DNA of 64,000 nt from an uncultured Acidobacteriota bacterium (GCA_902826455.1 CADEEV010000020.1:1-64000); one strand, 5' to 3'. Counted from the stretch's first letter, positions 50,340 to 53,822 are shown. Numbers and translations: made by a program. Notes: generated by a model not told the origin, from the sequence alone.

Positions 50340-50702
50340 TTACCAGCCGAGTCCGATCGAAACGTGGACGCCCGGACGCACCGGACGATACGCCGGCCGG
50401 TAGTACGGCCGCGGGGCGTAGTAGACCGGCTCCGGCGGGTAGTAGTAGACCGGGGGCGCCGAGTAGTAGTAGCTCACGCCGTACGACGGTCGATTGGACG
50501 AGTAGTAGTACCCGGAGCTCTGGCGATAGGGCGCTCGGTACGAGGGCCGGTAGGCCGGCCGGTACGACGAGCGATACGAGGGTCGGTAGGACTGGTAGGA
50601 GTGGCCGCACGAGCGAGAGTGGCGGTGGCTGTCGGCCGCGGCTGGCAGCGCCAGGGCCGAGAGGCTGAGCAGTACCGCCGGCAAGAGGGTTCGTACCTTC
50701 AT
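50340..50702 (-). CDS. Tyr/Pro/Arg-rich secreted protein with YRPxYR repeats
   Basis: 120 aa. A signal peptide (to about residue 23, LALPAAADS) precedes a low-complexity region of repeated SYRPSYR/AYRPSYR units (~35-62), then YYYS and PPVYYYPPEPVYY stretches, ending VRPGVHVSIGLGW. The composition suggests an extracellular or cell-wall-adhering structural protein; no enzymatic domain is seen. A strong GGAGGTGA ribosome site lies upstream, and a sigma-54-like promoter at 50731-50747. A strong terminator follows. Confidence 0.75.
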   Translation of the reverse strand: MKVRTLLPAVLLSLSALALPAAADSHRHSRSCGHSYQSYRPSYRSSYRPAYRPSYRAPYRQSSGYYYSSNRPSYGVSYYYSAPPVYYYPPEPVYYAPRPYYRPAYRPVRPGVHVSIGLGW

Positions 50703-50815: not shown

Positions 50816-51208
50816 CTATTCGAGCCAGACGCGGACGCTCTGCTCGTCGTCCTCGATCTCGACAAGGCTCTGCCCGCCCTCGAGGGTGTTCAGCACCTCG
50901 GAGAGCTTGATCCCACAATAGGCTTCCTTGTGCTCGCGCCGGCAGCCACTCCCGAAGGACATCGGCAGCCCGTCGCCGACCGCCCTGACGAAGGCGAGGG
51001 GGACGCTGACCCTCACGCGCCCCTTCTTCTCGCCCTTCGGGTCGACGCGGACTCGAAGCCACTTCGGGGGCGTCGCGACTGCCGTCGGCGTCGCGACGGG
51101 CGCCGATTCCGAAACCGCCTTCCGGATCAGGGCGAGGTCGTCCTCGGCCCTCGCGCCTCCAGAGGCGGCGACGGCCATCGGAACGAGAAGCCAGGCTGCG
51201 TACCGCAT
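50816..51208 (-). CDS. Secreted protein with a C-terminal beta domain shared by three operon members (member A)
   Basis: 130 aa. A signal peptide (to about residue 21, GARAED) and an Ala/Pro-rich linker precede an ~80-residue domain: KWLRVRVDPKGEKKGRVRVS, VPLAFVRAVGDGLP, a Cys-containing loop, then LVEIEDDEQSVRVWLE at the very end. The same pattern ends the proteins at 51217 and, more loosely, 53399. It resembles the beta-rich region that follows the SHOCT-like helices in YvlB-type proteins. Function unknown. Last gene of the sigma/anti-sigma operon. Confidence 0.75.
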   Translation of the reverse strand: MRYAAWLLVPMAVAASGGARAEDDLALIRKAVSESAPVATPTAVATPPKWLRVRVDPKGEKKGRVRVSVPLAFVRAVGDGLPMSFGSGCRREHKEAYCGIKLSEVLNTLEGGQSLVEIEDDEQSVRVWLE

Positions 51209-51216
51209 GAATCCCC

Positions 51217-52053
51217 CTATTCGATCCAGATCTGGACCGACTCGCCGTCCTCACCCTCGATGGTGAGGATCTCCATCTTGGGCAGACCCTTCAGGCGGTC
51301 CCAGAAGTTGTCGGCGTCGTAACCCTTGAGCGTCAGCTCTTTCTTGACCTCGTCGGGCAGGCTCTTGAACACGATCTCGGCGAGGCTCACGGGAACGTTG
51401 ATCGAGACCTTCGTCTTGTCCTTGCTGCCCTTCTCGAAGACGCGGACCTTGAGCCAGGAGCCCGGCGCGTGGGCGCTCGCCGTCCGCACAGGCGGCGGGG
51501 CGTTGGCCAGGGCCTGGGGATCGATGCGCAGCAGCAGGATCTTGGCCCGATCGACGAGGTCGGCGTCCTTCTCCTCGGCCACGATCTTCTTGAGGACGGG
51601 CACGGCCGGACGTGCGTTCACGCCGCCGAGGCCGCCCATCTGGAACGCGGCGTAGTAACGCACCGTGCGCGAGCTGTCCGCGAGACCGTCCCTGAGGACG
51701 GAGAGTGGCTGCACGTTGCCGCCCTTCACCAGCCGCGCCGCGAGGCCGACGCGGCTCGTGCGCGCCTCTTCGGCGAGGGCCCGGTCGGCAGGCCGCCGCG
51801 CCAGGTAGTCCCCGTACTCCTTGAAGGCCCGGGCGTCCTCCTTGAGGTTCTCGCTGCAACGCGCCACCCAGTAGCCCGCGGCCTCGGACTCGGGTCCACC
51901 CGAAGCGAGGATGCCCTGCCACGCGCTCCGGGCCTCGACGTACTTGCGGTCGAAGACCAGCGCCTTTGCGCTCTTGAGCCGCTCGCTGTCCTGGGCCTGC
52001 ACGGTTCCTGCGCAGGCGAGCAGAGCCATCGCGAGCCAGGCCGAGCGCTTCAT
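51217..52053 (-). CDS. TPR/HEAT-like secreted protein with the shared C-terminal domain (member B)
   Basis: 278 aa. A signal peptide (MALLACAGTVQAQ) is followed by TPR-like helices (~25-95), a HEAT-like segment (RTVRYYAAFQMGGLGGVN), and from ~200 the shared domain: SWLKVRVFEKGSKDKTKVSI, NVPVSLAEIVFKSLP, and the end MEILTIEGEDGESVQIWIE. The repeats probably mediate protein contacts in the periplasm. The ATG overlaps the anti-sigma stop (ATGA). Confidence 0.78.
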   Translation of the reverse strand: MKRSAWLAMALLACAGTVQAQDSERLKSAKALVFDRKYVEARSAWQGILASGGPESEAAGYWVARCSENLKEDARAFKEYGDYLARRPADRALAEEARTSRVGLAARLVKGGNVQPLSVLRDGLADSSRTVRYYAAFQMGGLGGVNARPAVPVLKKIVAEEKDADLVDRAKILLLRIDPQALANAPPPVRTASAHAPGSWLKVRVFEKGSKDKTKVSINVPVSLAEIVFKSLPDEVKKELTLKGYDADNFWDRLKGLPKMEILTIEGEDGESVQIWIE

Positions 52054-52814
52054 CCGACGAGTTCCCGCGACATGAGGCGCATCTTCATGAGGAGACCGCG
52101 CTCCTGCAGGTCCTGCTGCACACGCAGGAAGTCCTCCGGGTTGGCACAGGGGTCGAGGGATCCCACCTCGCGCAAGACATGGTCCACGTCGTCGAGGACC
52201 GGCCGGACGCTCGCGACGCTGTCGTCGTCGAGGGCCACGAGCAGCGCGCTGCGCGCGACCAGCTCGCGGCTCTTCTTCGATTCCTCCGACAGGTCGACGT
52301 GCCGATCGCGGAGCGAGCAGGCCCGGGGCGCGGCCGCGACGGTCATCAGCACGTCCTGCGCGTCGTTGAGGTACGCGACGGCCTGCTCTCGGGCCACCGT
52401 GCGTTCGAGGCGCCGCAGCGCCTCGGCGTCCATGGCGACGGGGGCAACGCTCGCCACCGGCTCCGGGTTCCTGCGCTCGGGCCGGCTCACGAGCATCGGC
52501 ACGAGCACGAACAGGAGCGCCGCGACGCCGAGACCATGAGCGACGCTCAGGAAGCGGAAGGGCCGCGACTGCACGGCGCCGTCCACCCGCGCCTTCACCC
52601 GCGCGACGAGGAACTCCACCGGCACGGGAAGCGAGGCGTCGCGCGCCGGATCCGCGGCGAGCGTCTCGAGCATCGCCAGGGAGGCCGCGTGGTCGCGGCG
52701 GCAGTCCTCGCAAGACTCGACATGGAGCAGCGTCGCCTCGCGCTCGGCGCCGTCGAGGCAGCCGGCGGCCAGCAGGCTGACCCGGGTGCGCCAGCGCTCG
52801 TGGAAGAGCCTCAC
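52050..52814 (-). CDS. Membrane anti-sigma factor with zinc-finger (HC2-type) domain
   Basis: 254 aa. The N-terminal cytoplasmic part has HVESCEDCRRDH, the His-x3-Cys-x2-Cys zinc motif of ZAS anti-sigma factors. One TM (SVAHGLGVAALLFVLVPMLVS, ~110-130) leads to an extracytoplasmic helical sensor domain. It should hold the neighbouring ECF sigma factor inactive until an envelope signal arrives. The start is GTG at 52814 overlapping the sigma-factor stop. Confidence 0.85.
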   Translation of the reverse strand: MRLFHERWRTRVSLLAAGCLDGAEREATLLHVESCEDCRRDHAASLAMLETLAADPARDASLPVPVEFLVARVKARVDGAVQSRPFRFLSVAHGLGVAALLFVLVPMLVSRPERRNPEPVASVAPVAMDAEALRRLERTVAREQAVAYLNDAQDVLMTVAAAPRACSLRDRHVDLSEESKKSRELVARSALLVALDDDSVASVRPVLDDVDHVLREVGSLDPCANPEDFLRVQQDLQERGLLMKMRLMSRELVG

Positions 52815-53395
52815 GTGCGCAGCCCCGACAAGCGGCGGCGCATCTCGTGGATGGCCCGGTGCAGGCTGCTCTTCACGGTGCCGAGGCGCATGCCGAGCGT
52901 CACGGCGATCTCCTCGAGGCTCCGTTCCTCGTAGTGCCGCAGGACGAAGACCGCGCGCTGCCGCTCCGGCAAGCCGCCGAGCGCCGCGGCGATGCGACGC
53001 GCGGTCTCGCCCCCCAGGGCGCGCGCCTCCGGCGATGGCGCCTCGGCCGTGAGGGTCTCGTGATGATCCCCCTCGACCATCGGCTCGAAGCTGGCTCGCC
53101 GGCGCTTCTCGCGCCGGTAGCGGTCGATCGACTGGTTGACCGCGATGCGCGAGAGCCACGGCCCGACCTCGGCGGCGGCGTTCCAGCGCGCTGCGTGCTC
53201 GTACGCCTTCACGAACGTCTCCTGGACCACGTCGAGGGCGTCATCGGGATTCCGGAGATAGGCGAGCGCGATGCGGTGCACGCGCCGCGAGTGTCGCTCC
53301 ATGAGGGGCCCCAGGGCGTCCTTGTCGCCCCGGGCGAGCCGCCCCATGAGCTCCCGGTCGGACGTGGCCACACCGGCATTGGACCATGGCTCCAC
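52811..53395 (-). CDS. ECF RNA polymerase sigma factor
   Basis: 194 aa sigma-70 family, extracytoplasmic-function type. Region 2 is at ~20-90 (YLRNPDDALDVVQETFVKAYEHA, WLSRIAVNQSIDRYRR) and region 4 at ~135-190 (LPERQRAVFVLRHYEERSLEEIAV, LGTVKSSLHRAIHEMRRRL), with no region 3. The ATG at 53395 has GGGTGGAG upstream and follows the lipoprotein stop by three bases. Confidence 0.95.
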   Translation of the reverse strand: MEPWSNAGVATSDRELMGRLARGDKDALGPLMERHSRRVHRIALAYLRNPDDALDVVQETFVKAYEHAARWNAAAEVGPWLSRIAVNQSIDRYRREKRRRASFEPMVEGDHHETLTAEAPSPEARALGGETARRIAAALGGLPERQRAVFVLRHYEERSLEEIAVTLGMRLGTVKSSLHRAIHEMRRRLSGLRT

Positions 53396-53398
53396 CCA

Positions 53399-53785
53399 CT
53401 ACCGCAGCCAGACGAGGACGTGGTCGCCCCCCTCCTCGTCGACTTCCACAAGGACGCCACGGCCCGCTTTCTCGAGGTTCTCGGGGAGCAGGCACAGTCG
53501 GGCGAACTGCTGACCCTGGTCCTCCGAGTCGTCGTCGAAGGCGATGGCGCCGGCCTTGCGGACGAGCCACAGCGGCGCGCTCACGCTCACGAGTTCCCGG
53601 TCGGAGGGGTCGTACACGAGGACGTTCAGGGAGCCCGGCTTGCCGGTGCCCTGGACCCGCGCCGCTTCGGCGAGCGCCTTCGAGAAGGCCGGCGCCGGAT
53701 CGTCGACGCGGCTGACGTTCACGAGACAGCCCGAGAGGCCGAGGGTGAGAGAGGCCACGAGTACGGCGAACGACGGGCGCTTCAT
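53399..53785 (-). CDS. Lipoprotein with a diverged copy of the shared C-terminal domain (member C)
   Basis: 128 aa. The signal ends in a good lipobox LSGC (Cys20). The remainder holds SLNVLVYDPSDRELVSVSAP, LWLVRKAGAIAF, and the end GVLVEVDEEGGDHVLVWLR, matching the pattern of members A and B (strand-rich start, central hydrophobic segment, acidic turn, VWL[ER] end). It is the first gene of the operon, just upstream of its sigma factor. Function unknown. Confidence 0.75.
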   Translation of the reverse strand: MKRPSFAVLVASLTLGLSGCLVNVSRVDDPAPAFSKALAEAARVQGTGKPGSLNVLVYDPSDRELVSVSAPLWLVRKAGAIAFDDDSEDQGQQFARLCLLPENLEKAGRGVLVEVDEEGGDHVLVWLR

Positions 53786-53795
53786 GTCGCTTCCT

Positions 53796-53822
53796 TAACG
53801 CACGAGCGGTCAGGGAGGTTCC
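53796..53822 (-). promoter_or_regulatory. Candidate ECF-type promoter of the sigma/anti-sigma operon
   Basis: On the minus strand GGAACC (plus 53817-53822) has the typical ECF -35 form, and GCGTTA (53796-53801) follows after a 15-base gap, 11 bases before the lipoprotein ATG. This would fit autoregulation by the encoded sigma factor, though the -10 sequence is not a canonical CGTC. Confidence 0.4.

Follow-up and report, generated by a model that had tools for sequence, protein, structure and literature searches.

A putative envelope-stress regulon of Acidobacteriota around an ECF sigma operon that encodes three exported proteins with a common C-terminal domain

The genome of an uncultured Acidobacteriota bacterium (class Vicinamibacteria) contains an operon in which a sigma factor and its putative anti-sigma factor are encoded together with three exported proteins that end in a similar way. 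The operon lies on a stretch of 64,000 nucleotides (GCA_902826455.1 CADEEV010000020.1:1-64000), referred to here as the window. Its genes encode, in order of transcription, a lipoprotein (C), an extracytoplasmic function (ECF) sigma factor, a zinc-finger anti-sigma factor, a TPR/HEAT protein (B) and a small exported protein (A). The locus raises the question of which genes this sigma switch controls, and what the similar ends of C, B and A contribute to it. An earlier description made without database searches (the sequence-only reading) had proposed five coupled genes of these kinds, and both the gene coordinates and the Pfam matches agree with that layout. In our analysis, the operon is probably part of an autoregulated, sigma-W-like envelope-stress regulon, the products of which would be exported proteins carrying the shared domain as well as MacA/MacB-type and ADOP-type ATP-binding cassette (ABC) exporters. 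The name DOM is used below for the shared C-terminal domain of about 80 amino acids (aa) in A, B and C.

Regulator genes and their fixed-spacing promoter

The sigma factor is a short protein of 194 aa that comprises regions 2 and 4 only, as is typical of ECF sigma factors, and it matches Sigma70_r2 (PF04542, 1e-18) and Sigma70_r4_2 (PF08281, 8e-16) in Pfam as well as TIGR02937 (1e-31) in NCBIfam. The adjoining gene encodes a protein with a zf-HC2 domain (PF13490, E 6e-5, above the Pfam cut-off), in which the zinc-finger motif H-x3-C-x2-C is present as HVESCEDC. This protein has a single hydrophobic span at residues 91-109 of 254, with a Kyte-Doolittle peak of 2.34. Hence, it combines a membrane span with an extracytoplasmic part as class I (zf-HC2) anti-sigma factors do, and by analogy with that class it would bind and inhibit its sigma. 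The genes are closely coupled: the sigma gene starts 3 bp past the end of C, and overlaps of GTGA and ATGA join sigma to anti-sigma and anti-sigma to B, respectively.

The arrangement is conserved. B has orthologues in 11 other genomes of the family and in 3 of a sister family, with the gene order C-sigma-antisigma-B-A kept in the former and C-sigma-antisigma-B in the latter, and the same module occurs in many other families of the phylum. Among the 34 relative loci with B, 28 are not cut by a contig end, and at every one of these the sigma and anti-sigma genes are located upstream of B.

Upstream of C, the motif GGAAC[CT]-N16-CGT[TA]A is present in 13/13 orthologous operons from these two families. 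Phylum-wide, 26 of 29 operons carry [GA]AAC[CT]-N16-CGT[AT], namely all 18 that begin with C and 8 of the 11 that begin with sigma; of the three operons without the motif, one (L044) is truncated at a contig end. At these DOM/sigma operons, any other spacing between 10 and 23 yields 0 or 1 match. An AAC-type -35 promoter, as looked for in ECF autoregulation, is thus found in the sequence at a spacing of exactly 16. Promoters of sigma-W belong to the AAC / CGTA class, with a spacing of about 16. In the window (53785-53800) and at three other loci (L036, L037 and L038), the start codon of C is only 7-10 bases past the -10 element, so that the mRNA may have no leader or hardly any.

The motif is also found away from the operon. 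At an unlinked site in this genome, as in many relatives, tandem pairs of DOM are present in two consecutive exported proteins, D and E. In this genome, the D-E operon sits downstream of a phosphofructokinase-like gene. Such tandem-DOM operons have the motif in 17/24 cases at spacing 16, with 0-3 matches at other spacings. The strict form GAACY-N16-CGTTA has only 4 matches in this genome (2 for the reversed-pattern control), and all 4 are on the same strand as a gene that begins a few tens of bases or less downstream. The genes are C, D, macA-macB and that of an ADOP permease. The motif, with CGT[TA] as the -10 element, is present at each of the five macA orthologues that the family and sister family yielded, a different family thus being included. 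An ADOP relative (64% identical) from another genus has the motif as well. Judged by its promoters, the unit is therefore larger than the operon, since the conserved promoter ties in unlinked tandem-DOM and MacA/MacB-type exporter genes. Two kinds of matches were set aside: those within the HlyD coding sequence (L157, L166 and L168) were taken as chance, and the protein behind the motif in genome G002 (L163), which is toastrack-like by eye, has no such Pfam match and was not counted.

The shared domain and its relatives

That A, B and C share one C-terminal domain behind differing N-terminal halves had been proposed from the sequence, and both points are upheld here. A and B are connected by single-sequence BLASTP (E 5e-8), which finds no useful match between C and either of them; thus, the link of C to A and B rests on profiles. 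Using profiles of orthologues from 12-15 genomes, hhalign gave mutual matches for A/B (98.4%, 6e-15), A/C (94.6%, 7e-8) and B/C (90%, 2e-6); as controls, comparisons with the profiles of sigma and anti-sigma never exceeded 0.8%. A profile built without any C sequence recovered the C orthologues from 7039 reading frames at E 5e-5 to 5e-3, and an iterated profile found 173 DOM copies in the same frames; all of them are in DOM genes, and A, B and C account for those in the window. AlphaFold2 models of the B domain and of C have the same order of elements, beta-beta-alpha-alpha-alpha-beta-beta, and hence do not show unrelated folds; their confidence is moderate (pLDDT 69 and 67), and the alignments behind them have rows in common, which makes the models partly dependent on each other. 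The domain is therefore modelled as alpha/beta and not as all beta, as had been suggested.

On these comparisons, the C-termini of A, B and C are homologous, beyond what chance would give. The alternative is a likeness of composition only, in which short beta hairpins, acidic turns and an aromatic end recur in proteins of separate descent. It would account for the failure of single-sequence BLAST to connect C with A or B, but it is already contradicted by the profile-profile scores with their clean controls, by the confinement of the iterated matches to DOM genes and by the agreement of the predicted topologies, and we consider it scarcely credible.

DOM is not covered by any Pfam, NCBIfam or PDB entry, and the 173 collected copies are not covered by Pfam where tested. 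Profile searches of the PDB with DOM and with its SHOCT-type relatives gave nothing significant, and the best E in Foldseek comparisons of both models against the PDB was 0.05. The ligand-binding domain of LasR, found at this E with a TM-score of 0.41, was not accepted as a fold match.

The sequence-only reading had compared the shared region to YvlB/SHOCT-like proteins and had stated that the helical SHOCT part is missing. The SHOCT-like family PF22746 indeed has no match in A, B or C, nor anywhere in this genome; it is present elsewhere in Acidobacteriota. In nine PF22746 proteins, the DOM profile matches the region after the SHOCT helices (best E 6e-8), and all nine outrank every unrelated frame. 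The reverse profile, made from the post-SHOCT region, retrieves DOM proteins, the window's A among them at 8e-5, and pairs with B at 96.5% in hhalign. At L185-L194, the conserved unnamed domain after PF22746 is DOM-homologous and is not covered by Pfam. As far as these profiles tell, DOM is the unnamed globular domain that stands behind SHOCT-like helices, and the window proteins have lost the helices and gained export signals: SHOCT-like proteins begin with the helices and have no export signal by eye, whereas A, B and C lack a SHOCT helix and carry either a signal peptide or a lipobox. At the five SHOCT-like loci that were inspected, a DUF2089-like gene, read by eye, is located directly upstream, and this SHOCT-like/DUF2089-like gene context has been assigned to membrane stress (PMC11237479). 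The comparison thus stands for the non-helical part of SHOCT-like proteins and fails for YvlB, which is a beta-helical toastrack protein. Toastrack proteins such as YvlB and LiaF are likewise membrane-stress partners that occur with SHOCT-like helices, but the predicted fold of DOM is alpha/beta with no beta-helix, and DOM proteins have no Pfam match to the toastrack families DUF4097, DUF2154 and DUF2807.

DOM was found in 124/396 sampled genomes of the phylum. A scan with the tandem-DOM alignment gave 12 named loci, 11 of which are titled Acidobacteriota or a class thereof and one uncultured bacterium; Vicinamibacteria and Thermoanaerobaculia are among the named DOM matches. Viral contigs and plasmids that were scanned contained no DOM relatives. 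In other lineages (L126:1944-5871, and also L116 and L112), tandem-DOM genes adjoin another ECF sigma/zf-HC2 pair or diverge from it, and behind the pair at L126 comes a TPR/HEAT protein that lacks DOM. It seems from these loci that the DOM family has been paired repeatedly with ECF switches.

The candidate regulon and the role of the DOM proteins

In ECF systems, the anti-sigma factor retains the sigma factor until an envelope signal arrives, and the sigma then boosts its own expression and that of its targets. In the resting cell, the zf-HC2 protein would hold the sigma at the inner membrane, and an envelope insult would relieve this hold. The released sigma would then transcribe its own operon from GGAACC-N16-CGTTA and, from similar promoters, the tandem-DOM operon and the exporter genes; that one sigma reads all of these promoters is inferred. 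The lipoprotein C, the TPR/HEAT scaffold B, A and the tandem-DOM proteins would be delivered to the periplasm or outer membrane. There, the most likely role of DOM is protein-protein docking, a guess made because the domain is found at the end of a lipoprotein, of a repeat scaffold and of a tiny protein, and also in tandem with itself. It could join DOM proteins to one another in an envelope-protecting assembly and, by way of B, C or A, dock back on the anti-sigma factor. The envelope-stress role, already proposed from the operon, is better supported through the promoter set.

Several observations weigh against this regulon. Genomes G034 and G042 have the motif at the tandem-DOM operon but no B orthologue, and their anti-sigma match is only weak (G034) or missing (G042). 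The genome under study encodes 32 Sigma70_r4_2 proteins, many ECF groups share -35 elements of the AAC type, and in two relatives (L156 and L175) GAACC-N16-CGTTA precedes a different ECF gene, hinting at cross-regulation. In addition, the structure models are of only moderate confidence and have no significant fold match, and the sequence itself does not reveal a stress signal. Given the motif at another ECF gene and the number of Sigma70_r4_2 proteins, the unlinked targets might be controlled by other sigma factors of the same preference, with the operon controlling only itself, and tandem-DOM operons of other lineages do adjoin other ECF/anti-sigma pairs. We regard this as unlikely, as there are only four strict matches genome-wide, two of them at DOM operons, and as the family member whose D operon lacks the motif is G004 (98% complete), a genome with no match to B or the anti-sigma factor, although this is a single case.

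Within the proposed regulon, the DOM proteins of the operon could have two different roles. They may form a sensing or feedback layer, in which DOM would let C, B and A attach to the anti-sigma factor on its extracytoplasmic part and so control how stable it is, much as RseB does for RseA. The constant presence of sigma and anti-sigma upstream of B (28/28 where the contig allows), the coupling of the genes by GTGA and ATGA and the conserved extracytoplasmic domain of the anti-sigma factor are consistent with such a layer, and autoregulation would yield negative feedback. On the other hand, A, B and C have no RseB-like Pfam domain, and tandem-DOM proteins with the same promoter class sit elsewhere without an anti-sigma gene, which fits effectors better; we hold the feedback role to be possible, tentatively so. 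That the DOM proteins are effectors only, for example an envelope-strengthening or peptide-binding coat, with sensing left to the anti-sigma factor alone or to a protease, has a good chance of being correct, if somewhat short of an even one. Several DOM proteins, unlinked tandem copies included, are under one promoter class and their companion genes encode exporters, which favours this role, yet pure effectors would not need the strict phylum-wide linkage of B and A to regulator genes. Both roles are live, and both may be true. It is doubtful, though conceivable, that A, B, C and the tandem-DOM proteins together make up a periplasmic sensing assembly of one repeated domain that directly gates the anti-sigma factor. 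If it were so, ECF switches would have a signal-input layer of a new kind, which is conserved across Acidobacteriota and built on a domain recruited out of a cytoplasmic membrane-stress family.

Two known systems are close to the regulon proposed here. YknXYZ of Bacillus subtilis resembles MacA/MacB. The sigma-W regulon of that organism, which likewise has an ECF sigma with a membrane anti-sigma factor, contains the SHOCT-like/toastrack operon yvlABCD and the export operon yknWXYZ (PMC3498285). In contrast, the DOM proteins of the present system, which belongs to another phylum, are exported and without SHOCT helices, and they are encoded together with the sigma factor. In E. coli, RpoE, RseA and RseB similarly place an ECF sigma, a membrane anti-sigma factor and exported protein in one autoregulated operon. 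The present anti-sigma factor is instead of the zinc-finger type, three DOM proteins take the place of RseB, and neither Pfam nor NCBIfam finds an RseB-like domain in A, B or C.

As the sequence-only reading had claimed, no described system with this layout was found in the literature searched, which also yielded no ECF group with HEAT or DOM neighbours and no Acidobacteriota envelope-stress regulation. New here is the promoter of fixed spacing at the operon, at unlinked tandem-DOM operons and at macA orthologues. Acidobacteriota are abundant in soil, and one concrete regulon is now proposed for them, with its promoter, regulator pair, targets and a new domain family of 173 copies; the promoter, target and binding-partner predictions are directly testable. 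The link of DOM to cytoplasmic SHOCT-like stress proteins suggests that stress responses on either side of the membrane make use of one fold.

Coordinates and neighbouring genes

Table 1. Features of the operon and of the unlinked tandem-DOM operon. Positions are those of the window unless a contig is named.
Feature	Position	Strand	Remarks
ECF sigma/anti-sigma operon, C-sigma-antisigma-B-A	53785-50816	-	Five genes
Putative ECF-type promoter, GGAACC-N16-CGTTA	53796..53822	-	Conserved motif, fixed spacing
Gene C, lipoprotein with C-terminal DOM	53399..53785	-	Lipobox LSGC
DOM of C (about residues 50-128)	53402..53638	-	hhalign with A/B profiles; iterated hidden Markov model, E 5e-16
ECF sigma factor gene	52811..53395	-	GTG start; Pfam and NCBIfam matches
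zf-HC2 anti-sigma factor gene	52050..52814	-	GTG start; one transmembrane span, conserved extracytoplasmic part
Gene B, exported TPR/HEAT protein with C-terminal DOM	51217..52053	-	Orthologues at E down to 1e-95
DOM of B (residues 200-278)	51220..51456	-	BLASTP, hhalign, predicted structure
Gene A, small exported DOM protein	50816..51208	-	Starts 8 bp after B
DOM of A (residues 50-130)	50819..51061	-	BLASTP, hhalign
D-E tandem-DOM operon	L061:5699-6762 (contig C49 of the same genome)		Two DOM copies per protein; own GAACC-N16-CGTTA promoter

A and B have signal peptides by inspection. In Pfam, B has weak HEAT repeats; A and C match no Pfam or NCBIfam domain. The five genes of the operon do not include a protease gene. 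On the other side of the promoter, a divergent plus-strand gene from about 53863 encodes a LOG-family protein by eye, and both this gene and the isocitrate-dehydrogenase-like gene behind it look unrelated to the operon. The next gene downstream of A (50340-50702) encodes a small secreted repeat protein rich in Tyr, Pro and Arg, and a similar gene follows A at L033.
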